25,629 bases of DNA, taken from positions 1 to 25,629 of the IMG/VR virus record IMGVR_UViG_3300025322_000149; one strand, written 5' to 3'. Source of the stretch: a virus. Positions within the stretch are counted from its first letter, which is position 1; every line of letters starts with the position of its first letter. The position numbers and the translations under genes were made by a program. Below the pieces are notes generated by a model. The model searched no databases. It saw only the letters and a program-made list of their open reading frames with translations, and was not told the DNA's origin. Positions 1,217 to 14,195 of this stretch are shown here, piece after piece.

Positions 1217-1273
1217 GACCGCAATCTAGCCCATCTTTCGTTGTAACGCAAGCTGCTCGCGGAGGCGAAAAAA

Positions 1274-1303: not shown

Positions 1304-1309
1304 AAAAAG

Positions 1310-1325
1310 TTACACACCTGTGTAA
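1310..1325. repeat. Dispersed palindrome, copy 1 (perfect 7+2+7)
   Basis: TTACACACCTGTGTAA. It lies directly after the stop codon of the 1327-2091 gene and just before the terminator at 1274-1303 in the direction of transcription. The arms are too short, and the loop too small, for an RNA hairpin; a dimeric DNA-binding protein site is the likelier reading. Confidence 0.85.
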
Positions 1326-1326
1326 T

Positions 1327-2091
1327 TTATTTCAGGTGAAGGTCATTGTCCCAATACTTGTGAGAGGTTACTGAAGTAGTGTCCGCAACCATAGAAAAGC
1401 CTACGATGGGATCTTCAGCATTTTCGTTCTTTTCTGGTTTGGTAAGTAACACAGTAGACAATATTAATTCATTGCACCATTGGTACATTTTCTGTCTTGT
1501 CGCCACTAAATCTTTGTATTCAGAATAAAGAGGCGACTGGTTTATTTTATTGTTCAAATCCGCCTTGCCTGTATCTGATGCATACGCCACCAAACTAGGT
1601 AGTATCCTTATTACCCTGCCCAAAGTGTGACATTCGTTTTTAAGCTGTTCCACTATAAGCAGCGTTAGGTGGTAGTGCTTGTGTAACAAACGTTCTCGAT
1701 CCAGCCATTTCTTTAGCGCCAACCTGTTCTTGTCGGGTAACTGAGAAGGCAATATTGTTTCGTGGCATATGCTTATATTGGGTATTACTATCTTTATGTA
1801 GTCTGGTATCCAGTCTTCGTGTTCTATAGCTATATCCTTAACTTTGATAGAAACTACATTCCCGTAACGAAACAGAGAGTCGTATTGGTGTTTTTTATCT
1901 CTTTCTCTTTCTCTAAGAAGTTTGTATGCCTCCCATTCTTGGGGGGTGAAGGCGTACCGATAGAAGTGGTGAATACTGTTAAACTTCCACGGGTTTAGTA
2001 TTCTGGACCTGCAAGATAGAGCATTACCTAATGATGTAGTTAAAATATCTAGTTCGGAGGGCCGGGAATTAAACCGTCTGCGTCGTCCCAT
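1327..2091 (-). CDS. Hypothetical protein of the AAA+/VWA cassette (254 aa)
   Basis: Not recognised as a named family. The protein has a basic N-terminus (GRRRRF), a charged RERERDKK stretch near residue 60-68 and a helix-rich middle. The central part (ICHETILPSQLPDKNRLALKK onwards to LPSLV) looks like a diverged relative of the equivalent part of its neighbour at 2095-2772 (ILCNHDIPFALDANNP onwards to WPELE). It is the last gene of the cassette before the terminator and sits 3 nt after the neighbour's stop. An adaptor or substrate-recognition partner of the VWA/AAA+ pair is inference from position only. Confidence 0.8.
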   Translation of the reverse strand: MGRRRRFNSRPSELDILTTSLGNALSCRSRILNPWKFNSIHHFYRYAFTPQEWEAYKLLRERERDKKHQYDSLFRYGNVVSIKVKDIAIEHEDWIPDYIKIVIPNISICHETILPSQLPDKNRLALKKWLDRERLLHKHYHLTLLIVEQLKNECHTLGRVIRILPSLVAYASDTGKADLNNKINQSPLYSEYKDLVATRQKMYQWCNELILSTVLLTKPEKNENAEDPIVGFSMVADTTSVTSHKYWDNDLHLK

Positions 2092-2094
2092 TGG

Positions 2095-2772
2095 CTAATC
2101 CTCCAGCCATGCGTCAACTTCTATGTCGGGCAGAATAATAGCTTTGGAGAGTAGTCTGTTTACGTTTTCCTGATGTGGTTTTATCTCTGCCTCATATACT
2201 TTTCTGTTCAAGCGCCGCACCCGCACCCGTTCTTTTACTAGTTTTTTGCGGGGGGGTTTGCACGTCTTAAGATTCGTATTTTCAATATAGAATGTTTCTA
2301 ACTCAGGCCAATATCGAAACGCTGTCTCTTTGTCGAAACAAACACCATTGACATACCTATGTACAGTCGAATTAATTAGATCCATCTCTGATTTAACACT
2401 CATCGCTAACTCATGCCACGCTAGAAGTTCTGCTCTATATGGATTATTGGCATCTAATGCAAACGGAATATCGTGATTACACAGTATTTCTGTTTCGCTG
2501 AGGAACCACATTTCTTTTTCGTCTGTAAGCTGAATTAAAACTTTTGTGCTAGTATTACCCGGAGCTACGCAGAGAATGAGGTTAGTAAATACTGTTGACC
2601 ATTTCTTCGACGGCAAAAAATATTCGGCGGGTAGTAAAGTTTTGATAAGCCCAGCCCGGTCTATAGTGAGCGGAGCAGAACGTTCAAGCCTGCTTGACAA
2701 AAGATATATTTTCTGAAAAATAGAGTCGCGCCATGCATTGAACACTTCTTTTTTGTATGTTTTCCACTTCAT
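2095..2772 (-). CDS. Hypothetical protein of the AAA+/VWA cassette (225 aa)
   Basis: No recognised domain. It begins MKWKTYKKEVFNAWRDSIF, has a beta-rich part with VLIQLTDEKEMWFLSE, a helical part ending in a FRYWPELETFY signature and a very basic tail region (KPPRKKLVKERVRVRRLNRK, about residues 175-193). Its ATG overlaps the stop of the VWA-metallopeptidase gene (ATGA), so the two are co-translated. The pattern of an LP/W/coiled segment followed by 'C..T/ET...WPEL' is shared in outline with the 1327-2091 product, suggesting an old duplication. Confidence 0.8.
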   Translation of the reverse strand: MKWKTYKKEVFNAWRDSIFQKIYLLSSRLERSAPLTIDRAGLIKTLLPAEYFLPSKKWSTVFTNLILCVAPGNTSTKVLIQLTDEKEMWFLSETEILCNHDIPFALDANNPYRAELLAWHELAMSVKSEMDLINSTVHRYVNGVCFDKETAFRYWPELETFYIENTNLKTCKPPRKKLVKERVRVRRLNRKVYEAEIKPHQENVNRLLSKAIILPDIEVDAWLED

Positions 2773-4013
2773 TCCTCCTTCTCCACAGGGATTCTAATTG
2801 TCTCCCCAAATTTCGCAACGAGGTCGCTGGTAGCACACCAGATAACCGGGTAGTCCGGTTCCTCGGGGAAATCTCCGTACATATCTGTCAAGTACACCAA
2901 CGCAGACGGACGGATGTCATTGTCGGCTACCCACTTGAATGGTGGCTTAAACGATGTACCGCCACCGCCTTTTAGCGGCGGGGGATTGTCTCTCAGATTA
3001 TCCCCTTGGACCAACAAGGTTGTGTCATGAATGGCAGCATCACACCCAAGCACCCATAGCTCCTTAGGTCTGGCGTCGGAGAGAATCCCATCGAGTTCGG
3101 ACATAAACCGGGTAAGTTCTTTTACCCCAATAGAACCAGATGTATCCACTGCTACCACAACAGTTCCTGCGCCAAAGCCTGTATAGCCGGGGAAGATAAT
3201 CCCCTGAGAAACAAACCGTCTTCGATGCAGCTTAGTCCACGTATGCGACTCTCTTGAGATAACCTTCTGCAACGAAAAACGCAGCTTCTCCTGCCACGGT
3301 ACAACAGGATTCAATAGTTCATCTACGAACCTACTGATCCCTGCTGGCATCTTGCCTTGGGCCTTCGCTGCATCAGCCGCAGACTTGACGGCGCGCTTCC
3401 ACTCAGCCTTCGATGTGCCATCTGTTTCCAGAATGTGAACATCAAATACTTTATTGTCCCCCTGTCCACCACTGTCATCGCTTTGGCCCTCTCTTTCTTC
3501 ACCATCCCCGCTACCGTCGCTGCTTTCTCCCTGTCCCTTTTCCTTATCTTTGCATTCTTTAACTAGGTCTTTGTACACATCCTCGACAAGCATACTGCCG
3601 CTGTACTTAGGGTTCAGCAATGCGCCTTTAGGGTGCTTACCTATTTTTGCTGTAACAAGCATATCATTAATAACAAAGTCAGCAGCTATGTTCCATAACA
3701 AAGGCACGAATTTATACTTGCCGTCTGGCCCTATTCCTGCATCAAGATACCGCTTGCCTCTGTCCATGTGCATCCACATAGCGTGAGCGATTTCGTGGCA
3801 TACCAAGAATACGGCCTCAACCAGCTTTAATGTTTTGAAGTAGTCTTCGTCTATGTAGATTATTTTCCCGTTGGTGCCTGCGGTATTGAATGGAGCGAGG
3901 ACTTCAAACTTGCCAATTTTCACAGCCATCTTATCGAGCAAGAGCGAAGCAAAGAACGGCATATACAAAAGTAGGGCCGTCTTTAATTCCGTATACGTAA
4001 TTGGTTTATGCAT
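2769..4013 (-). CDS. Putative metallopeptidase-VWA protein (DUF2201-like, 414 aa)
   Basis: Two domains are visible. The N-terminal zincin-like domain has HEIAHAMWMH (73-82) and a second conserved block WNIAADFVIND (107-117). An acidic, Ser/Gly-rich linker follows (about 155-188). The C-terminal von Willebrand A-like domain has the MIDAS motif DTSGS (290-294), GGGTSF (350-355) and a TD pair (376-377) in YLTDMYGD. This is the layout of the DUF2201 'metallopeptidase plus VWA-like' family, commonly paired with MoxR-type AAA+ ATPases. Whether it is an active protease is unknown: the HExxH is intact, but in the family it may be structural. It overlaps the 4006-4623 gene by 8 nt and is coupled to 2095-2772 downstream. 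Cytoplasmic; no signal peptide. Confidence 0.88.
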   Translation of the reverse strand: MHKPITYTELKTALLLYMPFFASLLLDKMAVKIGKFEVLAPFNTAGTNGKIIYIDEDYFKTLKLVEAVFLVCHEIAHAMWMHMDRGKRYLDAGIGPDGKYKFVPLLWNIAADFVINDMLVTAKIGKHPKGALLNPKYSGSMLVEDVYKDLVKECKDKEKGQGESSDGSGDGEEREGQSDDSGGQGDNKVFDVHILETDGTSKAEWKRAVKSAADAAKAQGKMPAGISRFVDELLNPVVPWQEKLRFSLQKVISRESHTWTKLHRRRFVSQGIIFPGYTGFGAGTVVVAVDTSGSIGVKELTRFMSELDGILSDARPKELWVLGCDAAIHDTTLLVQGDNLRDNPPPLKGGGGTSFKPPFKWVADNDIRPSALVYLTDMYGDFPEEPDYPVIWCATSDLVAKFGETIRIPVEKEE

Positions 4014-4623
4014 TGAGTTCTCTCAGTTCTGGATAGTGTTTTGTTTGTGGTGGCATACTACTAAATGGTATATGAATCGGCTCACATTCTCCTGAAGTCA
4101 ACCACCTGCAAACGTCGAGGCGTTCTTTTCTGTATTTATTAAGGAACGGCTTCACCAGCTTGCATATTGAAGGTGGAAGTTTGTCGCGTGTAGACATTCC
4201 GATAGCCACATGCCAGTCCCCTATTTTCTTTTCGCGTACTTCAAATCTTGAAGTTCGATAATCATGCGCGGAATTAACTACAGCAAACGGCTCAACAATA
4301 TGTAAGAATTCAGTACAGTCACCTCCAAACAACGGGAAACGAAACCTGTTGTAATAAAGCAAACCAGTTTCTAGTTTGTAGATCGGATTCATTATGCACA
4401 CAAACTCATAAATTGAGTAGAAAGAACTATTATCTGAGCTTCCGTATCCCCGCTTAATGTTCTTCACTAGCCGCTCGACTGTACTATCCGGCAATAGACT
4501 AAGGTCTACTACAGTTTCACCATGTATTTTAATTGGGTTGTGGGTGTTGCTCAAATTCCAGCGCGTGCCGTTGTTAAATCTATTAAGCCGCCGCGTTGCT
4601 GCGTAAGGATGTTCCGTTTCCAT
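4006..4623 (-). CDS. Hypothetical protein of the AAA+/VWA cassette (205 aa)
   Basis: Soluble protein with no named domain recognised. It starts METEHPYAATRRLNRFNNGT; the middle is aromatic-rich (SIYEFVCIMNPIY, LLYYNRFRFPLFGG) and the C-terminus has basic helices (NKYRKERLDVCRWL). It lies between the DUF3150-like gene (TAATG coupling at 4623) and the metallopeptidase-VWA gene (8 nt overlap), so it is almost certainly a member of the same functional unit. Function cannot be stated from sequence. Confidence 0.8.
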   Translation of the reverse strand: METEHPYAATRRLNRFNNGTRWNLSNTHNPIKIHGETVVDLSLLPDSTVERLVKNIKRGYGSSDNSSFYSIYEFVCIMNPIYKLETGLLYYNRFRFPLFGGDCTEFLHIVEPFAVVNSAHDYRTSRFEVREKKIGDWHVAIGMSTRDKLPPSICKLVKPFLNKYRKERLDVCRWLTSGECEPIHIPFSSMPPQTKHYPELRELNA

Positions 4624-5744
4624 TATTCACCTAGCGCGTTAAGATCATCGAGGATCTTCTTGGCTTCCGCAGCAAGATGCCGTCTCAGCGCATCATCCTT
4701 ACGAATATCCTTCACGTCGTGCATTGTCAGACCCTTCCGTATGCGCTCAGCGAACTGAGTAAGCCGCTTGTCACCAGTGACATTTAATTGTTCGAGGTCC
4801 TGCGCAGTCGCCTTCAACCTATCCATCATCGTGTAATGGAATGACGAATCTTTGTCACTGAGCCTAGCGTAAGCATGACTGACCGTCTTATACAACCTTT
4901 GCCAAAGTTCCTGCATGGCATTCTCCAGCATCGTATTGTTTTTCTTGTTGAGTGTATCCGCCAGCTTCTCAACCTGAGCATCGGCCAGACCAGTGAAGTC
5001 GCCACCCATGGGCACGGGATGGAAGTCAAAGCTAAGGTCGAAGTGCCCTCTAATAGAGTCAGTGTTGGGGTAGTCAGATATGTTAAACGCTGAACCTTGG
5101 CTTTTCTCTGCTATCTCTACCAACGTGGGGTATGCTTCTACCAGAACATCCAGAGCAGTTTCCATCTGCGCTTTATACGTCGCCATCTGTTCAATATATT
5201 CAGCAAACCTGACATTGGGCAGCATACGCCCACCCCGGCGTTTGCCTGCATCGTCCATAGACACAGTAGACCACGGCAAAGTCATAGCGTAGTGCGAAGT
5301 ACGTGCCTTGCCCATGATCTTATGTACCTTGTCCAGCTTCTCGTCTGCGCCAGCGAGCAAGTTCTTAGTCACGTTATATGTTTCGCTGTTCGCCCCTGCT
5401 GCAACGGCTGCTTCCATCGCTGCTTTGCGATCTTTAATCTTCGCGTGCCATTGTGCCGTATTCAACGTCACCAGTGTAGCGAACTGTCGCAGGTCAATAG
5501 CCTCAGCTATTTCGTCGCTGGAGAACACGACTTGCGGCAGGTAGCCGGGTACTGGTGCCTCGTCTAATATCTTTATTACTTCCTTGATCCGCTCGGAGTC
5601 TATCTCAGCCGTAACTTCCGCGACCGCCGGTTCGGGGTTACACACAGGTGTAACTATTACAGCGTCATCGTCACTGAGGACACTGTCCAGAATGTCATCA
5701 AGCTCATCACCTAGTACGTCTTTCAGATCATTTAATGTAGTCAT
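4623..5744 (-). CDS. DUF3150-like partner of the AAA+ ATPase (373 aa)
   Basis: Acidic N-terminus (many D/E in residues 1-30), then long alternating helices with an interior segment PWSTVSMDDAGKRRGGRMLP. FDLSFDFHPVPMGGD comes before further helices (KLADTLNKKNN). A protein of this size and helix-rich type between a MoxR-like ATPase and a VWA protein recalls the DUF3150 proteins of other phages and mobile elements; this match is by architecture, not alignment. It follows the ATPase by 3 nt and is TAATG-coupled to the next gene. Palindrome copy 2 lies inside its coding sequence, where it encodes V-T-P-V-C-N near residue 30-36. Confidence 0.82.
   Translation of the reverse strand: MTTLNDLKDVLGDELDDILDSVLSDDDAVIVTPVCNPEPAVAEVTAEIDSERIKEVIKILDEAPVPGYLPQVVFSSDEIAEAIDLRQFATLVTLNTAQWHAKIKDRKAAMEAAVAAGANSETYNVTKNLLAGADEKLDKVHKIMGKARTSHYAMTLPWSTVSMDDAGKRRGGRMLPNVRFAEYIEQMATYKAQMETALDVLVEAYPTLVEIAEKSQGSAFNISDYPNTDSIRGHFDLSFDFHPVPMGGDFTGLADAQVEKLADTLNKKNNTMLENAMQELWQRLYKTVSHAYARLSDKDSSFHYTMMDRLKATAQDLEQLNVTGDKRLTQFAERIRKGLTMHDVKDIRKDDALRRHLAAEAKKILDDLNALGE
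5638..5653. repeat. Dispersed palindrome, copy 2 (one arm mismatch), inside a coding region
   Basis: TTACACACAGGTGTAA. Six outer base pairs match; the inner pair does not. It lies near the 5' end of the DUF3150-like gene. It is the only copy deep inside a large gene, so it could be either a roadblock site or a chance survivor. Confidence 0.65.
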
Positions 5745-5747
5745 TCA

Positions 5748-6815
5748 TTACTCCATGTTGACCGAGTTCGCGCTCATCAGAAGGTCTTTGTTCTCTTTCA
5801 GCCACTTTGAAAATCCTATCGTGTTGACTAGCTGGGGAACCCGGCGCAATGTAGCCTTAAGGCCCGCGACTTGGAACTCTTTAGGCATACGCTGAAGGTA
5901 CTCAAACGCCGGTGCCGCCGTGTTTTTGTCAACCCGGTGAGCAACCATCTGCATAGTCGCATATTGTGCATCGGGCCTGTCAGAGTTAGGCAGCGGACAT
6001 TTTTGAGGGCTCTTCACAATATCCTCGAACGCCGGAATAGTCTCAGCCACTCTTAAGAACGCAATGAATTTTGCCCCGGTGCCTTCGCCTATGTATCCCG
6101 CTGCCGCTTCAGTCAGCAGGTCCATTGGCATAGCGTCAATGAGATAGCTGGTCTTCACTAATGTACGTGGTGTACAAAACGGACCGGACTTCTCGGGAAC
6201 ATCGAGACTGAATACTTCACCCGGAGAAATCTTGGCGAAGGCTATTGCAGCCCAGTGAATCCCCGCCTTCTCTGCCCACTCAACCCACGTATCCATATCA
6301 GGCTCAATGAGAATCTTCATACGCCTGTTGGATACGAAAGCTAGCTCTCGCTGTACCCCGGATCTGTGCTTCTCGCCGTTGCTGGCAGCCACCACCATCC
6401 ACGTAATAGGAAGCTTGCTCTCACCTACCCTGCCATTCAGCAGTAGCTCAGCAGCAGGCTTCTGTACATCGTGGTCGGCTTGCCTGAATTCATCCAGAAA
6501 CAGAATGCCATGCGGAGCCATGCCTACTCTTGGAGCCCACGGTGCCTTGGTAAACGTCATGATTTTGCTGCCGTCTGTGTCTATATCAGGCAGGCCATAT
6601 CCGCGTACATCAGGTTGCTCAAGCGTACTGAGAAAGAACGGATTGAACTGTACCGGAGAATTTATTTCTCTGGCAAGTTCATGTGCTACCTGCTCAACAC
6701 ACTCTGACTTACCGATACCGGGAACGGACTCAAGTTCAATCGAGAACCGGACGCCCGTCTCGATCTGTCGCTTGTACAGAATCTTGATTAACTTCTTCGC
6801 TTGTTTGATATTCAT
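5748..6815 (-). CDS. MoxR-type AAA+ ATPase (355 aa)
   Basis: ATP-driven remodelling ATPase of the AAA+ superfamily. The P-loop is SVPGIGKSE (30-38), Walker B LFLDEF (105-110), sensor 1 VVAASN (141-146), and a possible arginine-finger region is SNRRMK (162-167). The segment QPDVRGYGLPDID after the P-loop is typical of the MoxR/RavA-like group, which commonly works with VWA-domain proteins to activate or assemble target complexes. A good Shine-Dalgarno (AAAGGA) precedes the ATG. It heads the cassette with 4623-5744, 4006-4623, 2769-4013 and the two hypotheticals. The substrate in this phage is unknown. Confidence 0.92.
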   Translation of the reverse strand: MNIKQAKKLIKILYKRQIETGVRFSIELESVPGIGKSECVEQVAHELAREINSPVQFNPFFLSTLEQPDVRGYGLPDIDTDGSKIMTFTKAPWAPRVGMAPHGILFLDEFRQADHDVQKPAAELLLNGRVGESKLPITWMVVAASNGEKHRSGVQRELAFVSNRRMKILIEPDMDTWVEWAEKAGIHWAAIAFAKISPGEVFSLDVPEKSGPFCTPRTLVKTSYLIDAMPMDLLTEAAAGYIGEGTGAKFIAFLRVAETIPAFEDIVKSPQKCPLPNSDRPDAQYATMQMVAHRVDKNTAAPAFEYLQRMPKEFQVAGLKATLRRVPQLVNTIGFSKWLKENKDLLMSANSVNME

Positions 6816-7008
6816 TAACTACTGTCCTTTGATTGTCGTGAAACGCATGGGGATGTTTCATTGCTAACTCAGTAATATGTCTCTCTTTTATTTCGTTATT
6901 TGCTTTCAGCATATCTATGGTTTTCTGCTTCCTAATCCGTAAACTCATTAGCTTTATTTTCTTCCGCAGTTTCTTCTCCCGCCGACGCAGGATAGTGATT
7001 TCATTCAT
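6736..7008 (-). CDS. Small basic coiled-coil protein (90 aa)
   Basis: Residues 5-40 are almost all helix-forming and strongly basic (RRREKKLRKKIKLMSLRIRK), suggesting a nucleic-acid-binding coiled coil. A GGAG Shine-Dalgarno lies 7 nt before the ATG at 7008. The 3' end overlaps the AAA+ ATPase start by 80 nt, which is long for this genome and is the main reason for doubt. Palindrome copy 3 lies 15 nt upstream of the start. Confidence 0.55.
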   Translation of the reverse strand: MNEITILRRREKKLRKKIKLMSLRIRKQKTIDMLKANNEIKERHITELAMKHPHAFHDNQRTVVNEYQTSEEVNQDSVQATDRDGRPVLD

Positions 7009-7022
7009 GGGAACTCCAGAAG

Positions 7023-7038
7023 TTACACAGGAGTGTAA
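7023..7038. repeat. Dispersed palindrome, copy 3 (one arm mismatch)
   Basis: TTACACAGGAGTGTAA. It abuts the stop codon of the 7039-7497 gene and lies 15 nt upstream of the 6736-7008 start, a position that suits either an operator for the downstream gene or a roadblock after the upstream one. Confidence 0.75.
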
Positions 7039-7497
7039 CTAGGTTTTCAGCCAGCGTTTGGGTTTAGACGAGCTAGGTTCTGCATTTGTCCGGCTACTAA
7101 CTACACAACCTACGTACGCAGCTACACCTATTACTACGCGCCAGTCTTGGTCATCGAGCGGCGTGACTTTCCTATTGACATACTCAGCAATGCGCAGTAG
7201 TTCATCACCTGTCATGTTCCTTACTTTGGCAAAACAGATGATAACGCCATTGTCTTCCGTACCCCAATAGTCCGGTCGTGAACTCTCAGTGATCCATCCT
7301 GCAAATGCGCCCACTACTGTGCCTCGTGCCACTGCGTCAAACGCTTCTTTCTGCTCGGGTGTGGCTGTGTCGTAATATTTACGCGCCTGCGTAAGCGTGA
7401 CCGTAGCCTCACCGAATGGTGAAGCAGGAAACATAGGTACTGCTACGCCTATGGTGGCTGCGGCTGCAATCAGAATTATTGTAGTTTTGGCGAACAC
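7039..7497 (-). CDS. Secreted Rap1a/Tai-like protein (152 aa)
   Basis: The N-terminus (FAKTTIILIAAAATIGVAVP) is a typical signal peptide or anchor, so the product should be periplasmic. The mature part has GAFAGWITES, then ICFAKVRNMTGDELLRIAEY, then IGVAAYVGC. This layout, two spaced Cys around a helix and a final Gly/Ala helix, recalls the Rap1a/Tai family of secretion-system immunity proteins; the match is by pattern only. The start is a GTG at 7497 with no clear Shine-Dalgarno. A TATAAT lies only 8 nt upstream, so the transcript may be nearly leaderless. A protective, lysis-related or exclusion role in the periplasm is inference. Confidence 0.75.
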   Translation of the reverse strand: MFAKTTIILIAAAATIGVAVPMFPASPFGEATVTLTQARKYYDTATPEQKEAFDAVARGTVVGAFAGWITESSRPDYWGTEDNGVIICFAKVRNMTGDELLRIAEYVNRKVTPLDDQDWRVVIGVAAYVGCVVSSRTNAEPSSSKPKRWLKT

Positions 7498-7504
7498 AGG
7501 CAGT

Positions 7505-8247: not shown

Positions 8248-8417
8248 TAGTCAAACCTCTCCTCTATCCATGTTTTCTTGCCGACGATTTCCCTAAGCAA
8301 ATGGCAGTCGAACTGAGCGTCTTGTTTACTGGTTCGCCTGCCTTCCTCGACAACGGGTGCATCCATGCCCACTTGGGACATGACTGCATAAGCAACGATT
8401 TTCTTTGGGGGTTCCAT
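8247..8417 (-). CDS. Small hypothetical protein (56 aa)
   Basis: MEPPKKIVAYAVMSQVGMDA at the start, then a charged C-terminal half (LLREIVGKKTWIEERFD). It is an open frame below the usual size limit, placed exactly between two genes with TAATG overlaps at 8417 and 8247. No family recognised. Confidence 0.68.
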   Translation of the reverse strand: MEPPKKIVAYAVMSQVGMDAPVVEEGRRTSKQDAQFDCHLLREIVGKKTWIEERFD

Positions 8418-8608
8418 TAGTTAATCTCCTCTATGGATGTGATATGCCATCGTTCTTTGGGGATGTTGGGGAATGTAGTACGGAATAGCTGCTTCTTGGC
8501 TAGCCCTGCTGCTTCGCGGATAGAGTCACAGTTCACATCGACATGACCAGTGTGACGCTTCCACATATGGTGCCTTGGCGGCACTTCAAGATAAACCCTG
8601 TACCTCAC
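8417..8608 (-). CDS. Small hypothetical protein (63 aa)
   Basis: MRYRVYLEVPPRHHMWKRHT: a beta-strand start, then a His-rich loop, then a helix (IREAAGLAKKQLF) and a final strand (WHITSIEEIN). The strand-helix-strand layout resembles small phage proteins of unknown role. The ATG overlaps the stop of the 8605-8928 gene and its TAA overlaps the next ATG. Confidence 0.75.
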   Translation of the reverse strand: MRYRVYLEVPPRHHMWKRHTGHVDVNCDSIREAAGLAKKQLFRTTFPNIPKERWHITSIEEIN

Positions 8609-8928
8609 AGGTTTTTCTCAATCCACTTAGCAATCTGTTTGAACGAGTGTTTTTTGGTGCCGCAAGACCCGTCATTCATATCAATCAGGTGGTTTTCGTC
8701 GGCAGCGAGCCCGAAATATTCTTTGTTTTCCCAGCTAAACGTGCCTGAATTGTTTCCGTTCTGTTTCCACCTGTTAGTGACATTCAACAACACACCTAAG
8801 CAGCAGAAATAATCTTCTCCATTGCTATCGCTATCACTACAAAGCATCTGAGTGCCTTGGTTGTACTCGCCTTCAGGTGCCTGACCCCGCAGGGCCTTAA
8901 GCCATTTGTCTTTGATTGCTTTCTTCAC
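8605..8928 (-). CDS. Conserved phage hypothetical protein (107 aa)
   Basis: Carries the pattern of a widespread small phage family of unknown function: an N-terminal KWLKALRGQAPEGEYNQG, a CCLGVLLNV block, an LIDMNDG block and a C-terminal SFKQIAKWIEKNL. Length is usual for the family. It is coupled by ATGA to the Cys-rich gene upstream. Family membership is recognised from the motif order; no biochemical role is known to me. Confidence 0.8.
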   Translation of the reverse strand: MKKAIKDKWLKALRGQAPEGEYNQGTQMLCSDSDSNGEDYFCCLGVLLNVTNRWKQNGNNSGTFSWENKEYFGLAADENHLIDMNDGSCGTKKHSFKQIAKWIEKNL

Positions 8929-9254
8929 TTCTGTTCTCCATGTTTGAGTACATTACGCAGGAACCGTAGCTCTTTCTTAGCTGCCGCCATGCCTTTGTCC
9001 TTAGAGTATGGATCATATTCCATATACGGAGTGCCCGCACATCCACCACGTTCGGGGCCTTGATCTGGATCAAACACAGCCAGTGGGCAATTGCCACAAT
9101 TTAAAAAAGATACCATGTAGGCTTTACATAGCGGGCAATTATCGGGGCCTTCGTCTTCTATTGTGCCAGCTACGATGCCCTCCCATTTTTTGATTGACCC
9201 GCGCAATGCACGGGCCGCTTTCTTTGTCAGCTTCGGCCATACTATTTTCGCCAT
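8925..9254 (-). CDS. Cys-rich, probable zinc-binding phage protein (110 aa)
   Basis: The frame opens further upstream but the ATG at 9254 is chosen: AGGAGAAAG precedes it and the product then begins MAKIVWPKLTKKAARAL. NCPLCKAY is followed by NCGNCPL and GGC, the spacing of a zinc-ribbon-like small phage protein. The C-terminus is a helix (AAKKELRFLRNVLKHG). It overlaps the upstream gene by 13 nt. Confidence 0.78.
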   Translation of the reverse strand: MAKIVWPKLTKKAARALRGSIKKWEGIVAGTIEDEGPDNCPLCKAYMVSFLNCGNCPLAVFDPDQGPERGGCAGTPYMEYDPYSKDKGMAAAKKELRFLRNVLKHGEQK

Positions 9255-9511
9255 AGTTCTTTCTCCTGTGGTGTTGAGTAAATGACATTCAGTTCTGGAT
9301 ACCCGCACGCCTCTAACCATTTCCTGAGATTGAATGCGGGGTTGCGTGCCTCAAATACTTTCGCCAGTGCAAGCACTATTTTCAAATGGGTGGCGTAATC
9401 AGACTCCTCTTTAGTTACTTTCATCACATCAGCGGTCGTCTCAAACACTGCTTTTGTTAGTGGTGAATAAGAAAGCCCTGTTATAAATTGTCTATTGGGT
9501 CTATGGGACAT
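9242..9511 (-). CDS. Hypothetical protein (89 aa)
   Basis: Helical, soluble protein: TKAVFETTADVMKVTKEESD, then LKIVLALAKVFEARNPAFNL, then RKWLEACGYPE. No family recognised. Its ATG at 9511 lies inside the last codons of the 34-residue ORF at 9501-9605. Confidence 0.72.
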   Translation of the reverse strand: MSHRPNRQFITGLSYSPLTKAVFETTADVMKVTKEESDYATHLKIVLALAKVFEARNPAFNLRKWLEACGYPELNVIYSTPQEKELWRK

Positions 9512-9605
9512 AGTGCGTTACGCCTTCGTATCCATCAACCCGCCACCAAAGTAACACACCTGTGTAACCTGCCCATGTGCCATAGAATGTTGCACGATAA
9601 GTCAT
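9501..9605 (-). CDS. Small ORF containing palindrome copy 5 (34 aa)
   Basis: MTYRATFYGTWAGYTGVLLW at the start, then WRVDGYEGVTHYVP. A GAAGG Shine-Dalgarno is about 10 nt upstream, and the frame ends just past the ATG of the next gene. The palindrome forms codons for GYTGVL. Aromatic-rich, perhaps a small membrane-associated peptide. Real but modest support. Confidence 0.45.
   Translation of the reverse strand: MTYRATFYGTWAGYTGVLLWWRVDGYEGVTHYVP
9552..9567. repeat. Dispersed palindrome, copy 5 (one arm mismatch)
   Basis: TAACACACCTGTGTAA. It lies 41 nt upstream of the 9242-9511 start, inside the small ORF at 9501-9605. Confidence 0.72.
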
Positions 9606-9663
9606 TTTTAGCTGCCTTCTACGTGTTGTAAACAATCAACGCTAATGTTTATTTAAAGTAATG

Positions 9664-10164
9664 TCATCCCTTCCCCTCCGACGCTTCCTCTGTAAGTCGC
9701 TCAGCAGCTTCCAAAAATTGCGGGGCAACGAGTCCGTGCTGTGGAAATACCTTCTTCCACGCCTCCATCGCTGCCCGCAGCTTCTCAGATAGCGTCCGGC
9801 TCTCATCGAGGCGGCTGACAAGAAAGCGTGCATAGAATGTTGCTATTGACGACGACGTGGTGTCTGCAACTAATAGACGAGTGCTGGCCTCCATCTCATC
9901 ATTACAATCATCAATCTGCGACTGCTCGGCTACCTTCTCCATGTAATGGTCCCGCTGCTTGGTCATCTCTACGCAGTTGGGGCAGGGCGGATCGGGGCGG
10001 GCGAGGGCTGAGATCAGGTCCTTGATTACAGTGGCGGTACTATCCTGCTCCCGCTCCCAAGCCATTGTCCTGCCGTTGATACCGAATTCGCTACGTATCC
10101 ACAGCCTACGTTTTTCCAAAGTGGTTAGGCACTTCTCCGCCGCCTCTCGCACTGATTGGGTCAT
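9664..10164 (-). CDS. Hypothetical coiled-coil protein with a CPNC pair (166 aa)
   Basis: Mostly helical, Glu/Lys/Ala-rich: REAAEKCLTTLEKRRLWIRS at the start, a PPCPNCVEMTKQRDHYMEK hinge (about 59-77) and a long C-terminal helix (LSEKLRAAMEAWKKVF). The single CxxC pair could join another to bind zinc in a dimer. No named family. It is coupled by ATGA to 10161-10349. Confidence 0.72.
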   Translation of the reverse strand: MTQSVREAAEKCLTTLEKRRLWIRSEFGINGRTMAWEREQDSTATVIKDLISALARPDPPCPNCVEMTKQRDHYMEKVAEQSQIDDCNDEMEASTRLLVADTTSSSIATFYARFLVSRLDESRTLSEKLRAAMEAWKKVFPQHGLVAPQFLEAAERLTEEASEGKG

Positions 10165-10349
10165 AACTTCGCTCCCTTGAAGGTGATGGGGCGGACGCAG
10201 TAGTCTTTATATCGCGGGCGCGCCGCACGAGCATCGGTTCTACTGAAATAGATGCGTGGTATATATCTGCCTTCACTATCAAAAAACCCTACGAGACTTT
10301 TGTCGTCACTCCAGCACACCGCCCACAGTCTGTTTTTGGGTTTGGTCAT
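10161..10349 (-). CDS. Small hypothetical protein (62 aa)
   Basis: MTKPKNRLWAVCWSDDKSLV at the start, then GFFDSEGRYIPRIYFSRTDA. A compact beta-rich protein with a basic C-terminal region. ATGA overlaps at both ends place it in the small-gene operon. No family recognised. Confidence 0.7.
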   Translation of the reverse strand: MTKPKNRLWAVCWSDDKSLVGFFDSEGRYIPRIYFSRTDARAARPRYKDYCVRPITFKGAKL

Positions 10350-10537
10350 GAGTCTAACTTCTCACCAAGAACGTGTTGACAAAAGCGCCGCTCGGTGATC
10401 TCTTTGTTTTGTGGTTTCATAGCGCAGTGGAAACAGATGCGCTCACCATTAAGTCCATAAGGACGTAGTTCCTCTGTTTGCCCGCAGTATTCACAGGTAC
10501 TTTTGCACTCTCGCTCAATAACCCCGCGGCGGCTCAT
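10346..10537 (-). CDS. Small zinc-ribbon-like protein (63 aa)
   Basis: A CEYCGQ knuckle (residues 15-20) and ICFHC (35-39) give four Cys in a CxxC-14-CxxC layout, typical of small zinc ribbons. Further Cys lie near residues 11 and 53. Such proteins often bind nucleic acid or a host protein; the target is unknown. ATGA coupling on both sides. Confidence 0.75.
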   Translation of the reverse strand: MSRRGVIERECKSTCEYCGQTEELRPYGLNGERICFHCAMKPQNKEITERRFCQHVLGEKLDS

Positions 10538-10755
10538 GATTCCTGCTCCAGCTTGTTGATGGCGGCGAGTGCGTTCTTCAACCGCTTATCTGGTTTTTTG
10601 TTAACCTGCGGATAGGCGCTAATTGCCTCCCTGATCTCCTGCGCAGCCTCCACCAGTTTAATCATGCGCTCGTCAATACGTATTGAGAGACAGGTCGCAG
10701 GAAACCTTTCCAAATCTTCCCGCAGAATGCAGGCAACGTCGGTGAGTGTGGTCAT
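10534..10755 (-). CDS. Small helical hypothetical protein (73 aa)
   Basis: Begins MTTLTDVACILREDLERFPA and ends in Lys/Ala/Leu-rich helices (KRLKNALAAINKLEQ). No recognised domain. The ATG overlaps the stop of the two-span membrane protein upstream (ATGA). Confidence 0.68.
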   Translation of the reverse strand: MTTLTDVACILREDLERFPATCLSIRIDERMIKLVEAAQEIREAISAYPQVNKKPDKRLKNALAAINKLEQES

Positions 10756-10934
10756 GTTATTGATATCCCCATTCCTACCATTGTTACAAACACCGCCACC
10801 AGTGTGAACAGCACCCCAACGTAGAACTTTTGTTCTTTATTTAATGGGGTGTCCTCCCATACAAAACTAAAGAATGCTCCACCGAGCAGTCCTGTAATGA
10901 GTATGAGCCCTAGAGCAATGTAATCATGCGACAC
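10752..10934 (-). CDS. Small membrane protein with two spans (60 aa)
   Basis: Two hydrophobic segments, about residues 5-25 (YIALGLILITGLLGGAFFSF) and 37-58, joined by a charged loop (EDTPLNKEQK). The start is a GTG overlapping the stop of the upstream gene (TAGTG), with AGGAG upstream. The size and topology would suit a holin-like protein, but it lies in the early small-gene operon with no lysin nearby, so that reading is weak. Confidence 0.72.
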   Translation of the reverse strand: MSHDYIALGLILITGLLGGAFFSFVWEDTPLNKEQKFYVGVLFTLVAVFVTMVGMGISIT

Positions 10935-11200
10935 TATATTTGACTCCTACATAAGCATGTCACTTGTTCAATTTCGCCATTGGCGCGCTGCCACGTAATC
11001 CATCCACGGCCATTGCACTCAGAGCAGGACCTGTTGATGATAACGCGATCCTTACACTGCCTGCCTATCTTGGCAATTACTTCAGCGGTCTTGGGCATGG
11101 TGAGCGCAAGCTGGACAAGCTCCCCATTACGCGCTGTAACAGCCGGTTTTGTTTTAAGTCTGGGGCACCAGAGCCGGTTAAATAATTTACTTAGGTTCAT
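10934..11200 (-). CDS. DnaJ-knuckle-like zinc protein (88 aa)
   Basis: The C-terminal half has CSECNGRGWITW (about 59-70), the CxxCxGxG knuckle of DnaJ-type zinc fingers, followed by CLC. The N-terminus is basic (NLSKLFNRLWCPRLKTKP). A role in binding a client or nucleic acid is inferred from the knuckle. Palindrome copy 6 overlaps its upstream region and provides the GGAG about 11 nt before the ATG. Confidence 0.75.
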   Translation of the reverse strand: MNLSKLFNRLWCPRLKTKPAVTARNGELVQLALTMPKTAEVIAKIGRQCKDRVIINRSCSECNGRGWITWQRANGEIEQVTCLCRSQI

Positions 11201-11457
11201 TGGTGGTTACACTCCTGTGTAATTCTAGGGTTGACCCATGCGTTCAGCATTTTTACCATGGTTTTTGCTTCTTCAAACGATTCAAATTCTAGCATTGTAG
11301 ACACAATGTTTGTTGATTTCACAATTCTTTCCGAGTGACTGGGTAGCGCCCAAAATCTCGCTCGCCAGTACGCCATACTATTTGGATATTTATTCAGAAA
11401 ATCGTCAGTGTACATTACGACGGTCCATTTTTTTGTTATGCTCTTATGGTTTCTCAC
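11197..11457 (-). CDS. Hypothetical protein, paralogue of its upstream neighbour (86 aa)
   Basis: The start is taken as the GTG at 11457, because it overlaps the TGA of the previous gene (GTGA) and removes a 55 nt overlap that the longer frame needs. Visible parts: KKWTVVMYTDDFLNKYPNSM, RARFWALP and EFESFEEAKTMVKMLNAW. The last block matches FDSYEEAYALYCILNDW of the 11454-11741 product, and both begin with a Lys-Trp strand, so they form a tandem pair. The C-terminus (ITQECN) is written by palindrome copy 6. Function unknown. Confidence 0.72.
   Translation of the reverse strand: MRNHKSITKKWTVVMYTDDFLNKYPNSMAYWRARFWALPSHSERIVKSTNIVSTMLEFESFEEAKTMVKMLNAWVNPRITQECNHQ
11207..11222. repeat. Dispersed palindrome, copy 6 (one arm mismatch)
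   Basis: TTACACTCCTGTGTAA. Read on the minus strand it holds a GGAG that may act as the Shine-Dalgarno of the 10934-11200 gene, so binding would cover the translation signal region as well as the end of the upstream gene. Confidence 0.75.
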
Positions 11458-11741
11458 CTGCTTTTTGTGCCCCCTCGTTGGTTCGTTATGTCTGTGCCGG
11501 TATGCCATCCACAGCCATATTGGCTAACCCACCTCCATGCCTTTGTCGGGTGCCAGTCATTAAGTATACAGTACAGTGCATATGCTTCTTCGTAACTGTC
11601 AAATACTTGAATGCTATGAACATGCGGCCCTCTATAGTCTCGCTCATACTGGTTGGTAAGTGTAAACCTCACGTAACCTTTATGTAGCTCAAGTATTTCA
11701 TCATCCCAATGTAGCAAGTGCCATTTATCCGAGGTGACCAT
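11454..11741 (-). CDS. Hypothetical protein, paralogue of its downstream neighbour (95 aa)
   Basis: The ATG at 11741 (MVTSDKWHLLHWDD) is chosen over the longer frame, whose first codon is an ATT at 11789. A weak purine-rich Shine-Dalgarno (AAAAGAGAA) precedes the ATG. The VFDSYEEAYALYCILNDW block is shared with the 11197-11457 product. The C-terminus is Trp/Gly-rich (WRWVSQYGCGWHTG). No family recognised. Confidence 0.7.
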   Translation of the reverse strand: MVTSDKWHLLHWDDEILELHKGYVRFTLTNQYERDYRGPHVHSIQVFDSYEEAYALYCILNDWHPTKAWRWVSQYGCGWHTGTDITNQRGGTKSR

Positions 11742-11765
11742 TTCTCTTTTCTCGTCGAAAAAAGG

Positions 11766-11780
11766 TTGGTAGGGGGATAA
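11766..11780. repeat. Direct repeat copy A, TTGGTAGGGGGATAA
   Basis: An exact 15 bp copy of 11803-11817, 37 bp apart start to start, ahead of the 11454-11741 gene (25 nt upstream of its start). On the minus strand it reads TTATCCCCCTACCAA. A tandem operator or phage-specific promoter element is possible. Confidence 0.7.
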
Positions 11781-11802
11781 AGGGATCAATTAAAATTCAT
11801 CC

Positions 11803-11817
11803 TTGGTAGGGGGATAA
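11803..11817. repeat. Direct repeat copy B, TTGGTAGGGGGATAA
   Basis: Exact partner of 11766-11780; it lies between the 58-residue gene stop and the 11454-11741 start. Confidence 0.7.
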
Positions 11818-11842
11818 CTAGCGGGGTCATGCGATTTGGCCG

Positions 11843-12019
11843 TCATCTATATGTAACCTGCGATCTGGCAGGCTCGCACTTGAGCAGTCGGCCATTCTCA
11901 TTGACAGCCTGATAAGCGGCGACCCTACGGGCCTCTATCTCACTGGTCGCAGTCACCTTGCCAGTTCTGATGGACCCGTGGGTGCGGATTACAAACTGAT
12001 AGATCTGTTTGTGAAACAT
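11843..12019 (-). CDS. Small hypothetical protein (58 aa)
   Basis: MFHKQIYQFVIRTHGSIRTG at the start, then KVTATSEIEARRVAAYQAVN and a short tail. A strand-loop-helix protein with a basic character. CAGGAAAA precedes the ATG. It is below the usual caller limit, but the open frame has a Shine-Dalgarno and fills a gap in the operon. No family recognised. Confidence 0.62.
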   Translation of the reverse strand: MFHKQIYQFVIRTHGSIRTGKVTATSEIEARRVAAYQAVNENGRLLKCEPARSQVTYR

Positions 12020-12057
12020 TTGTTAGTTTTCCTGTGTTGATTTGTTAAGTGTTTGTG

Positions 12058-12073
12058 TTACACACCTGTGTAA
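12058..12073. repeat. Dispersed palindrome, copy 7 (perfect 7+2+7)
   Basis: TTACACACCTGTGTAA. It lies 39 nt upstream of the 11843-12019 start, in a non-coding stretch. Confidence 0.85.
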
Positions 12074-12210
12074 TAAAGCCGGTTGCGCGCCGGCGCAGAC
12101 AATAAAGCCAACCGAGTTCCCATTGGTGGGCGTGTGATTTGTTATACCTGCTACCAAATACAGGCGTCTTTGTCACACTATTTAGAAAGACTAATACAAA
12201 CACGCAACCG

Positions 12211-12300
12211 GATATGCAGGCACCTTGGCAGTCGGGCACAAGCACACAACACACAGGAGCACACAGGGAAAGCGCCTGAGTGCCTTGGTGCCTGCATATC
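12211..12300. repeat. Long inverted repeat, about 20 bp arms and 50 bp loop
   Basis: Left arm 12211-12230 and right arm 12281-12300 match at 18 of 20 positions (GATATGCAGGCACC pairs exactly with GGTGCCTGCATATC, then two mismatches, then GGCA/TGCC). The loop is CA-rich on the plus strand. It could be a structured RNA, an origin hairpin or a recombination site; no T-run follows, so a simple terminator is unlikely. Confidence 0.75.
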
Positions 12301-12348
12301 GAGTTACGCGAACCGGACATAGAAGCGGACATGCGGAGATTGGCAGGG

Positions 12349-12651
12349 TTATTCTCCGCTTGGCGGGTTGTCGGGGCGGTCAGGGTCATAAATACATTGG
12401 CCGCTGTTATGGTAGGTGATGAATTTCATTACACCTTCAGGAGTATCGTAGGGGGGCTTACCAAAACGGGGCCACTCTGTAGTCATGTCACAAAAAACAC
12501 AATGGAGGATGGTTTTACCGTCTTGGGGAATAGGCCCGACCGGCTGGTGTCTTTCCAGCTTTCTTGCTTTCTTGATTTGGGCAAAGAGTCCGGCTGGTTC
12601 GAGCAGGCCGTAGTAGAGATTGTATTTTCTGATGGGGCTGGACATATTCAT
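12349..12651 (-). CDS. Hypothetical protein with Cys/His pairs (100 aa)
   Basis: HCVFCDMTTEWPRFG (about 50-64) is followed by TYHNSGQCIYDP (about 79-90); the CxxC plus H/C spacing suits a small zinc-binding fold. A Pro-rich C-terminus (PDRPDNPPSGE) is typical of small phage proteins. The Shine-Dalgarno is weak, and ATG at 12645 is an alternative start. It is the first gene left of the probable origin. Confidence 0.62.
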   Translation of the reverse strand: MNMSSPIRKYNLYYGLLEPAGLFAQIKKARKLERHQPVGPIPQDGKTILHCVFCDMTTEWPRFGKPPYDTPEGVMKFITYHNSGQCIYDPDRPDNPPSGE

Positions 12652-12707
12652 TACCGCTTGTTTTAAAACCCTATTGGTTTTGTTTTTTGTGCCTCATGGC
12701 CGAGGTT

Positions 12708-12764
12708 GGACGTAGTGAAACAGCACTTTGGGGTTAATTATGGTGGGTCTACGGCACTACGTCC
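12708..12764. repeat. Inverted repeat GGACGTAGTG / CACTACGTCC
   Basis: The 10 bp arms at 12708-12717 and 12755-12764 are perfect. The right arm runs into CACGTCTAGGTCC, a degenerate iteron, so this is the outer edge of the iteron region. Confidence 0.75.
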
Positions 12765-12843
12765 ACGTCTAGGTCCATGTGGGCCTTTGGGGTTGGGTGC
12801 CTTGGTGCCGGAAAATCTATATTAGGGGTCAATGACTTACAAT

Positions 12844-12872
12844 CTCTACGTCCTCTACGTCCTCTAGGTCAG
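12844..12872. repeat. Iteron cluster 1 (9 bp period)
   Basis: CTCTACGTC is repeated with a 9 bp period and ends CTCTAGGTCAG. The last 20 bases (12853-12872) recur as an exact inverted copy at 12966-12985. Confidence 0.85.
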
Positions 12873-12965
12873 CCCTTTTGTGGAGAGAGAAGTATAGATA
12901 TAAAACCAAAAAACACATATCGGCACTGCTCCCAAAAATCGCCTATGGTTCGTTATTATTTTTGC

Positions 12966-12985
12966 CTGACCTAGAGGACGTAGAG
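12966..12985. repeat. Iteron cluster 2, inverted copy
   Basis: CTGACCTAGAGGACGTAGAG is the exact reverse complement of 12853-12872, 93 bp away, and directly borders the AT tract. Confidence 0.85.
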
Positions 12986-13025
12986 ATATATATATATAAA
13001 ATATCTTTATAATATATATATATAT
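12986..13025. other. 40 bp AT tract, candidate DNA-unwinding element
   Basis: Only one base of 40 is not A or T, with long alternating TA runs. It sits between an inverted iteron copy and the third iteron cluster, where an unwinding element would be expected. Confidence 0.65.
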
Positions 13026-13034
13026 GGAGGTTTT

Positions 13035-13187
13035 ATGTCGTCCAACTCAACGTCCTCTACGTCCTGTACGTCCTCTACGTCTGCCTTCTGTATAGCTGCT
13101 GATGATAACGCCCATCTAACCACTCCCATTCTCATTAATACCCACTGCCAAAACCCCAAGGCACGGCGGCATTACACACCTGTGTAA
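13035..13187 (+). CDS. Possible small ORF reading through the iterons (50 aa)
   Basis: The ATG at 13035 has a strong GGAGG 5 nt upstream. The frame stays open to a TAA inside palindrome copy 8. Its N-terminus is a Ser/Thr repeat (MSSNSTSSTSCTSSTS) produced by the iterons, so the frame may be a by-product of the repeat. It is the only plus-strand candidate in the left arm. Treat as doubtful. Confidence 0.3.
   Translation: MSSNSTSSTSCTSSTSAFCIAADDNAHLTTPILINTHCQNPKARRHYTPV
13050..13081. repeat. Iteron cluster 3 (9 bp period)
   Basis: ACGTCC units with TCT or TGT spacers, four units at a 9 bp period, in the same orientation as cluster 1. Confidence 0.85.
13172..13187. repeat. Dispersed palindrome, copy 8 (perfect 7+2+7)
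   Basis: TTACACACCTGTGTAA, between the iteron region and the terminator at 13229-13261. Its TAA would be the stop of the plus-strand ORF. Confidence 0.85.
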
Positions 13188-13228
13188 TCCACCATGAAAT
13201 TCTAAAGGTTGCTCGCGCAGACGTGAAA

Positions 13229-13261
13229 AAGGCCCGCAAGCTTATCAAGCCTGCGGGCCTT
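13229..13261 (-). terminator. Rho-independent terminator
   Basis: AAGGCCCGCA pairs with TGCGGGCCTT, with an inner GCTT/AAGC stem and a 3 nt loop. On the minus strand the stem is followed by further T residues. It ends transcripts from 13268 rightwards before they reach the origin region. Confidence 0.8.
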
Positions 13262-13267
13262 AGTGAT

Positions 13268-13384
13268 TTAGCGTGAGGTTCCGACTGACCATTCACCGGC
13301 AAGGCGTAGGACGTAGAACGTCCGGCCCATGACTGTCACTCCAACAAAGCGCGTGCTGCCGTCAGTCACATTATAGAATTTCAT
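13268..13384 (-). CDS. Small hypothetical protein (38 aa)
   Basis: MKFYNVTDGSTRFVGVTVMG at the start, then RTFYVLRLAGEWSVGTSR: three or four short beta strands. GGGAG lies 8 nt before the ATG. It overlaps the upstream gene's 3' end and is followed by the terminator at 13229-13261. No family recognised. Confidence 0.62.
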   Translation of the reverse strand: MKFYNVTDGSTRFVGVTVMGRTFYVLRLAGEWSVGTSR

Positions 13385-13529
13385 TTGCTCGCTCCCGTTG
13401 TGATAGTTCGATCTGGATGTCGAAATTGACACGCTCAAGCCACGCTATCTTAGCAACGAGCGAATCAAATGCAGCGATGGCGCGGTAAGAATTATCCAGC
13501 GCCGCTATTAAATCATTGTCGCATTCCAT
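13371..13529 (-). CDS. Small hypothetical protein (52 aa)
   Basis: MECDNDLIAALDNSYRAIAA at the start, then FDSLVAKIAWLERVNFDIQI: a helical protein, perhaps a short coiled coil. AGGAG lies 6-7 nt before the ATG. It overlaps the next gene by 14 nt. It follows the terminator-like hairpin at 13548-13584, so it may depend on read-through from the 13591-14154 gene. Confidence 0.66.
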   Translation of the reverse strand: MECDNDLIAALDNSYRAIAAFDSLVAKIAWLERVNFDIQIELSQRERANEIL

Positions 13530-13547
13530 AGTGATCTCCTGAAAAGG

Positions 13548-13584
13548 CACGGGATGATTACACAGTCTGTGTAACCATCCCGTG
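13548..13584 (-). terminator. Terminator-like hairpin with palindrome copy 9 as its core
   Basis: CACGGGATG pairs with CATCCCGTG outside the palindrome, giving a stem of about 17 pairs with one mismatch and a 3 nt loop. On the minus strand CCTTTT follows. It lies 7 bp after the stop of the 13591-14154 gene. Confidence 0.65.
13558..13574. repeat. Dispersed palindrome, copy 9 (7+3+7)
   Basis: TTACACAGTCTGTGTAA, the only copy with a 3 bp spacer. The 17 bp form the inner part of a longer inverted repeat. Confidence 0.85.
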
Positions 13585-13590
13585 TAAGTT

Positions 13591-14154
13591 TCACTCTGCC
13601 TTGCGGTTCACGTTCAGTATAAACCCGTTGACCGCCGCAAGCTTGGCGAGTGACTTTTTAAAGTCACGCGACAAGTGAGGCAGGCGAATGATCAGGTTCA
13701 TTGCCGCAGTGGCGCGGCCTTTCGCTTGCTTCGCCGTCGGGGTTTCCGCCTCGGCTCGCTTCGCGGTCTTGGCGCCGATGGCAAGCTTAACGGAAGCTTT
13801 GACGTTCCCCTTTGTCTTGCGCAATGTGCGCGCCAGTCGCAGGGCATCGCGCCAATCAAAAGTTTGGCAGTCCTTTTTGAAAAGCGTGATTGCCTCGGGC
13901 AACATGGCATACTGCGACAAGACCGCCCGGCACTCTGACTTGCGCACCTTCGCGCTTTCGTCGGACCATCCACGAATCACCGACACGCTATCGGTAATGA
14001 ACTTCAGATCCTTACCGGGGATCGCCGTTGAGCCGTAATTTTCCCGAGCGACCGCGAGACAATGCAAGAGAACATTACCGCTGTTCTCTACAGTCTCGAA
14101 TGCGCTCGCCATTTCCTTTGCGATAGCCTGCCGGCCATCTGATTGCTTCGCCAT
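13591..14154 (-). CDS. Candidate phage regulatory protein (187 aa)
   Basis: Basic, helical protein: MAKQSDGRQAIAKEMASAFE at the start, FDWRDALRLARTLRKTKGN near residues 98-116 and a Lys/Ala-rich region (AKTAKRAEAETPTAKQAKGR). No named family recognised, and no certain helix-turn-helix. AGGGAG precedes the ATG. The gene is flanked by palindromes, copy 10 upstream of the start and copy 9 just after the stop, and is the first gene of the leftward arm. That layout would suit an autoregulated DNA-binding protein, which is inference. Confidence 0.78.
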   Translation of the reverse strand: MAKQSDGRQAIAKEMASAFETVENSGNVLLHCLAVARENYGSTAIPGKDLKFITDSVSVIRGWSDESAKVRKSECRAVLSQYAMLPEAITLFKKDCQTFDWRDALRLARTLRKTKGNVKASVKLAIGAKTAKRAEAETPTAKQAKGRATAAMNLIIRLPHLSRDFKKSLAKLAAVNGFILNVNRKAE

Positions 14155-14179
14155 GATAGTTACTCCCTAGTGTGTTGAG

Positions 14180-14195
14180 TTACACAGATGTGTAA
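14180..14195. repeat. Dispersed palindrome, copy 10 (perfect 7+2+7)
   Basis: TTACACAGATGTGTAA, 26 bp upstream of the 13591-14154 start. With one flanking base each side it is a perfect 8+2+8 palindrome. Confidence 0.85.

Follow-up and report, generated by a model that had tools for sequence, protein, structure and literature searches.

A lineage-specific palindrome array in one phage operon and its covariation with the operon's first gene

Introduction

Repressor arrays made up of many sites are known from temperate phages, where they are explained by superinfection immunity. In the temperate phage phiC31, the sites of the c repressor, called conserved inverted repeats (CIRs), comprise about 18 palindromes of ~17 bp spread over the early region. 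In the cluster A mycobacteriophages (L5, with its repressor gp71, Bxb1, and TipsytheTRex), repressor sites called stoperators lie across the lytic genes in short intergenic gaps, one stoperator occurs in the repressor's own leader, and the motif and the repressor diverge together between genomes (PMC6550527, PMC9283540). Each cluster A stoperator is an asymmetric 13-bp site that is aligned with the direction of transcription and occupied by a repressor monomer (PMC9283540). In SPbeta, a 15-bp motif, SPBRE, is repeated over the phage genome and bound by a single master regulator, MrpR (YopR) (PMC10516654). Here, we describe an array of ten palindromes, TTACACA-N2/3-TGTGTAA, all of which lie in the leftward operon of a viral sequence, IMGVR_UViG_3300025322_000149. 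The stretch analysed, hereafter the window, is this whole IMG/VR record of 25,629 bp, which is probably a genome fragment with the far left end of this phage outside view.

With moderate confidence, we favor the reading that these sites serve as operators for a sequence-specific DNA-binding protein of the phage, most likely the one encoded by the first gene of the operon; this protein would be autoregulated and would act at the sites as a stoperator-like roadblock to elongation. A preliminary description of the window had noted a resemblance to the stoperators of L5-like phages. This resemblance holds for the presence of a multi-site array in one operon: copies of one site occupy intergenic gaps, a site lies in the leader, and motif and candidate binder diverge together. 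However, the sites here are two-fold symmetric with flexible spacing, and an asymmetric center, where there is one, is found in both orientations. The proposed binder is an orphan fold without a recognized helix–turn–helix (HTH), whereas the L5 gp71 family combines an HTH with a second domain, and no integrase or resolvase was found in the records examined here. Because the cluster A repressors belong to a different family, bind as monomers, and recognize oriented sites without symmetry, the array described here is not a member of that system. The scattered palindromic sites in the early region of one phage are also reminiscent of the phiC31 CIRs, a likeness that concerns their general description and not a comparison of sequences; to our knowledge, neither lineage-by-lineage rewriting of the array nor sites within coding sequences are features of the CIRs. 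SPbeta differs in that the SPBREs lie in promoter regions, that the tyrosine-recombinase-like fold of MrpR is unmatched by the models obtained here, and that SPbeta is a prophage. A literature search for such arrays in lytic phages, with most subscription papers outside its reach, found no paper.

Results

All ten positions listed in the preliminary description were confirmed, six of the palindromes being perfect (five with a 2-bp spacer and one with a 3-bp spacer) and four having one mismatched pair (Table 1). When up to three mismatches were allowed, the N2 pattern matched 10 times in the window, compared with 1.15 matches expected from dinucleotide shuffles, and this count was attained in none of 100 shuffles. 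The commonest spaced 6-nt arm was present in 9 copies, whereas the maximum in 20 shuffles was 2. The array opens 26 bp ahead of the first gene and closes immediately past the last stop codon, ahead of the terminator. The earlier observation that no site lies to the right of 14195 held when the window was scanned at up to two mismatches; this limitation to the left 14.2 kb has a probability of p = 0.003 under random placement in this window alone, and it was replicated in larger relatives. Sites with three mismatches were found at 17623 and 7379, one each, which corresponds to the chance level.

Related viral contigs were collected from IMG/VR using the AAA and DUF2201 proteins as queries, and they make the evidence for the array far stronger than one genome could. 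The orthologous operon was found in 18 related phages with 5–12 palindrome sites each, and the scan of relatives that had been proposed at the outset thus revealed orthologous arrays with lineage-specific arms, in one operon each. TTACACA arms were present in five phages including the window, with spacers of mostly 1 bp (G004 and G005), 2 bp (the window and G008), or mostly 3 bp (G009). The relatives without TTACACA repeated a different palindrome 5–12 times in the orthologous interval, with the arms TTAACAG (G006, L212, and L218), TTGCTAG (G007 and L154), TTACAAG (L206/L207), TTACAAC (L203 and L204), TTACACC (L205), TTACTCA (L208), TCACAC (L209–L211 and L217), ACACACA (L213/L215), or CCACACA (L216/L219). 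In 13 larger records (37–66 kb), the array was restricted to a single interval of ~8–13 kb, apart from one stray site in G013. Among the arrays tested, the commonest arm occurred in 5–11 copies, compared with ≤3 in shuffles; a shuffle value is lacking for the CA-repeat motifs of L215 and L219 because the complexity filter removed the motif itself.

A cultured relative, Rhizobium phage RHph_TM3_14A (MN988472), carries the palindrome TTACCT-N4-AGGTAA at 36 sites with ≤1 mismatch, where we estimate that ~0.1 would be expected. As in the window, these sites fall where one gene meets the next and also ahead of the gene that opens the early region. The isolate differs in its larger number of sites, in the inclusion of the late region, and in a first gene whose homology is undetectable by sequence. 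In addition, positions 2313–18629 of the contig L157 contain five copies of TTACCC/TACCC-N4-GGGTA(A), which resembles the motif of the Rhizobium phage and may be a further array. A megablast search of the window against phage records gave no match, and when viral contigs were scanned with the exact degenerate pattern, the matches listed were mostly background.

In terms of their location relative to genes, the palindromes had been described as lying at gene 3' ends, beside terminators, and near starts, and this was observed both in the window and across the arrays of the relatives. Among 138 sites in 17 arrays, 28 started directly past a stop codon (4.7 expected), and 51 lay 8–30 bp ahead of a start with a Shine–Dalgarno-like sequence (12.1 expected). 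The suggestion that a site requires no terminator stem holds as a rule, although 11 of the 18 arrays have a site directly before an intrinsic terminator, a hairpin and T-run following directly behind 17 of 143 sites. In the records that hold the operon start, a site either precedes the first gene by up to ~75 bp or lies ~100 bp within it. The gene downstream of the AAA gene was checked in 21 genomes and bears an internal site in 15 of them; the codon frame of the site is shared by 12 of these, and the encoded residues (VTPVCN, VTQCVS, VNSLLT, VASLAT, VTTVVN, or VTSLVT) change with the motif of the lineage. Since this site is rewritten in frame and the residues follow the motif, it is the nucleic-acid word, and not the protein, that is under selection.

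Two other functions for the sites were considered. An activator role was rejected because the gap between the sites and the start codons is too small for an intervening promoter. Hairpin promoters of the N4 virion RNA polymerase (vRNAP) type, considered because the AAA/VWA pair is N4-like, were rejected because the orientation is inconsistent and the downstream sequence is not shared. It also counts against an N4-type vRNAP that no polymerase family was among the matches of the giant protein of G006 (3130 amino acids; L140, 53–9445), whose N-terminus resembles a lytic transglycosylase/endolysin and whose C-terminus resembles DarB.

Homologues of the first gene, recognized by sequence or by position, were located directly behind the first site in most array-bearing relatives. 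Across a set of 18 linked, partly saturated sequences, first-gene distance tracked motif distance when AAA was controlled for (partial Mantel r = 0.44, p = 0.0002) and when the gene at 4623–5744 was controlled for (partial Mantel r = 0.57, p = 0.0002). For example, the AAA proteins of L211 and L215 are 95% identical, whereas their first genes, the most diverged of all, are only 32% identical (others, 47–95%), and the motif has shifted. Likewise, the first gene of G006 showed BLAST similarity to those of L212 and L218, which have the same motif, and none to those of G007 and L154, which have another, whereas most other operon genes of G006 were about equally diverged from those of L212 and G007. 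The AlphaFold2 (AF2) model of the window protein consists of nine helices (predicted local distance difference test score, pLDDT, 85.6), and the models of TTACACA-type and TTAACAG-type first proteins have an identical order of nine helices. The sequence similarity between the two types is marginal, and their profiles are collinear over 164 columns with a weak score (probability 12%). No Pfam or PHROG family was assigned to the product, and a tblastn search with it against phage records gave no match. Of the two binders proposed in the preliminary description, the first-gene product is well supported as the specificity determinant by its covariation with the motif, and it is the best candidate for the array-binding protein.

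Several observations weigh against this assignment. No significant Foldseek match was obtained with two AF2 models against the PDB or with the window model against BFVD, and no recognizable DNA-binding domain was found in the product. Mantel tests on sequences that are linked and partly saturated are not proof of binding, and the VWA protein was also weakly associated with the motif (p = 0.02). Two other fast-evolving genes of G006 likewise had no match in G007/L154. The leader of G005 lacks a site, a single site being located inside the first gene instead, and a tolerance of 0–3 bp in the spacer is unusual for an operator.

The second proposed binder was the ribbon–helix–helix (RHH) protein encoded at 16130–16324. 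If it and its orthologues bound the array, the first gene would be only a linked, fast-evolving gene, which we consider unlikely. RHH proteins are well known as binders of phage operators, an RHH orthologue is present in nearly all array-bearing relatives, and, in three members of a more distant clade (L159, L168, and L194), the RHH gene itself has an TGTGTATACACA palindrome ~18 bp upstream. However, the residues of the predicted base-contacting strand, R-x-H-x-I/M, at positions that we take to be equivalent to those of Arc, are near-invariant (M for I in L204 only) over about nine motifs, and RHH distance is unrelated to motif distance (partial Mantel r = -0.01, p = 0.54). Furthermore, in the clade of the window, the RHH gene and the array are as much as 7.5 kb apart, and no array palindrome lies directly ahead of this gene. 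The RHH protein was rejected as the array binder on account of its invariant contact residues and the absence of covariation, and its earlier nomination is left unsupported. As a separate observation, TGTGTATACACA palindromes are clustered in the distant clade (L159, L163, L168, and L194), where they probably represent an RHH operator system of their own.

We give an equally low probability to the possibility that the sites serve DNA organization (partition, condensation, replication, or packaging) and not transcription. The many copies across the replication-gene region and their spacing of ~0.5–2 kb are consistent with such a role, but the sites are strongly coupled to stop codons, starts, and the operon terminator, and the rest of the genome has no array in the 13 larger records. 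No ParA/ParB-like gene was noticed beside the array, although no systematic search for one was made. Less probable still is the binding of the sites by a host regulator, with the motif varying because the hosts vary. The motif does vary among phages of unknown host, but the sites are restricted to one phage operon, the motif tracks a phage gene, and it differs between L211 and L215 despite their nearly identical AAA proteins.

The palindromes could in principle be recognized as DNA or as RNA. On the coding (transcript) strand, single-pair mismatches comprised 10 G-U, 10 A-C, and 19 other pairs, whereas an RNA hairpin would be expected to favor G-U over A-C. The symmetry of the arms is perfect even at spacers of 0–1 bp, at which the inner bases of a hairpin would be unable to pair. 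From these two features, we conclude that the sites are recognized as duplex DNA, by a protein predicted to be two-fold symmetric. Three spacer lengths are mixed in the single genome of L211, which suggests flexibly joined DNA-binding units. The palindromes can fold as RNA and lie between cistrons beside Shine–Dalgarno sequences and terminators, but hairpins in a polycistronic mRNA (processing, translational, or antitermination signals) are the least likely of the alternatives, being opposed by the mismatch counts and short spacers as well as by short, A/U-rich stems and sites within coding sequences.

The features of the window are listed in Table 1. The leftward operon begins at 14154 and also encodes several small open reading frames (ORFs) and further proteins; beyond its terminator, a protein with a weak, below-cutoff match to DNA_pol_A_exo1 is encoded.

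Table 1. Palindrome sites and genes of the leftward operon, with the rival binder gene
Feature	Position	Strand	Remarks
Palindrome site TTACACAGATGTGTAA	14180–14195		Perfect, N2; precedes the operon's first gene by 26 bp
First gene of the leftward operon	13591–14154	-	187 amino acids; all-helical orphan protein; proposed array binder
Palindrome site TTACACAGTCTGTGTAA	13558–13574		Perfect, N3; between the first and second genes; within larger inverted repeat CACGGGATG...CATCCCGTG
Palindrome site TTACACACCTGTGTAA	13172–13187		Perfect, N2
Palindrome site TTACACACCTGTGTAA	12058–12073		Perfect, N2; 39 bp upstream of ORF 11843–12019 (-)
Palindrome site TTACACTCCTGTGTAA	11207–11222		One mismatched pair; coding strand holds AGGAG; ends 7 bp before ATG of ORF 10934–11200 (-)
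Palindrome site	9552–9567		One mismatched pair; precedes ORF 9242–9511 (-) by 41 bp
Palindrome site TTACACACCTGTGTAA	7529–7544		Perfect, N2; near 3' end of ORF 7522–7956 (-); overlaps promoter-like -35, with TATAAT at 7510–7505 (-)
Palindrome site	7023–7038		One mismatched pair; directly past stop of ORF 7039–7497 (-); 15 bp before ORF 6736–7008 (-)
Palindrome site	5638–5653		One mismatched pair; within coding sequence of 4623–5744 (-), 91 nt past ATG; reads V-T-P-V-C-N
Palindrome site TTACACACCTGTGTAA	1310–1325		Perfect, N2; directly after the operon's last stop codon (ORF 1327–2091), directly before the terminator
Intrinsic terminator GCCCGCAGGCCCGAAAGCCTCGCGGGCTATTTTTT	1268–1305	-	Ends the operon
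Phage MoxR-type AAA ATPase	5748–6815	-	phrog_1297; query for finding relatives
Conserved protein	4623–5744	-	373 amino acids; function unknown; bears the internal site
DUF2201 metallopeptidase/VWA-like protein	2769–4013	-	Same operon
Ribbon–helix–helix protein	16130–16324	+	Divergent rightward operon; rival binder, disfavored

Other elements were observed in the window and its relatives. Eight iteron-like nonamers of the CTCTACGTC type, direct (9-bp spaced) and inverted, are located at 12700–13085, where they flank an A+T-rich stretch (12986–13025) in a non-coding gap, and this region is a possible replication origin. Six relatives (L135, L136, L141, L149, L151, and L153) have kept a G/C-run element, CCCCC-TTGGYCCGGTACC-CCCC, in the divergent control region that precedes the first gene. 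This element is diverged in the window (about 14230–14300) and is followed by a promoter-like TTCCTA-N9/10-TATGGTGAGAG. The rightward arm contains a sugar-related cassette (16777–22069) with FkbM methyltransferases, a polysaccharide-biosynthesis NAD epimerase, and a GT2/GT-D glycosyltransferase. A conserved 162-amino-acid protein (24626–25114, -; 41–52% in relatives), whose gene runs antisense to that of the large terminase and overlaps the 3' end of the latter, is possibly the small terminase subunit.

Discussion

The operator reading that we favor would operate as follows. The first-gene protein would be made early and would bind as a dimer to two half-sites, TTACAC(A) in the window phage, tolerating 0–3 bp between them, and through the site at 14180 it would repress its own leader. 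The internal sites would lie where no ribosome closely trails RNA polymerase, namely past stop codons, before Shine–Dalgarno sequences, and before the terminator. The location of sites just after stop codons agrees with the established notion that RNA polymerase overcomes obstacles more readily when a ribosome follows it. Once bound, the internal sites may serve as elongation roadblocks that shut down the early/replication operon when the protein has accumulated, and the terminator-proximal site may halt or slow the polymerase ahead of the terminator and so insulate the next gene. The protein and its sites would shift specificity jointly, which would give each lineage an array of its own.

The lifestyle of these phages bears on how such an array would be used. 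No tyrosine integrase or serine recombinase/resolvase was found in 14 records of uncertified completeness, several of them 58–66 kb long, in a search that took in these recombinases and not partition genes. Likewise, 84,980 species genomes of bacteria and archaea yielded no relative of the AAA gene. The annotation of RHph_TM3_14A contains unverified labels for attL/attR and an "integrase". The absence of an integrase or resolvase gene from these records, uncertain as their completeness is, points to lytic phages and makes a lysogenic-type immunity repressor doubtful. We tentatively suggest that this may be a virulent lineage in which an early protein with a new fold binds DNA, regulates itself, and acts on roadblock sites tiling the whole operon, and in which cross-repression by co-infecting relatives has repeatedly led to the joint rewriting of all the sites and the protein, generating "immunity groups" free of lysogeny.

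The arrays described here occur in a lineage without a detectable integrase, with a motif for each sublineage and a proposed binder of no known fold, and the maintenance of the sites extends even into a coding sequence. The natural variants of the protein, roughly ten in number and each paired with its cognate site, would provide a ready-made specificity code. These arrays raise the questions of what role an operator array plays in a phage that is apparently never a prophage and why its specificity turns over so fast, and the array of the RHph_TM3_14A isolate makes the matter directly testable.

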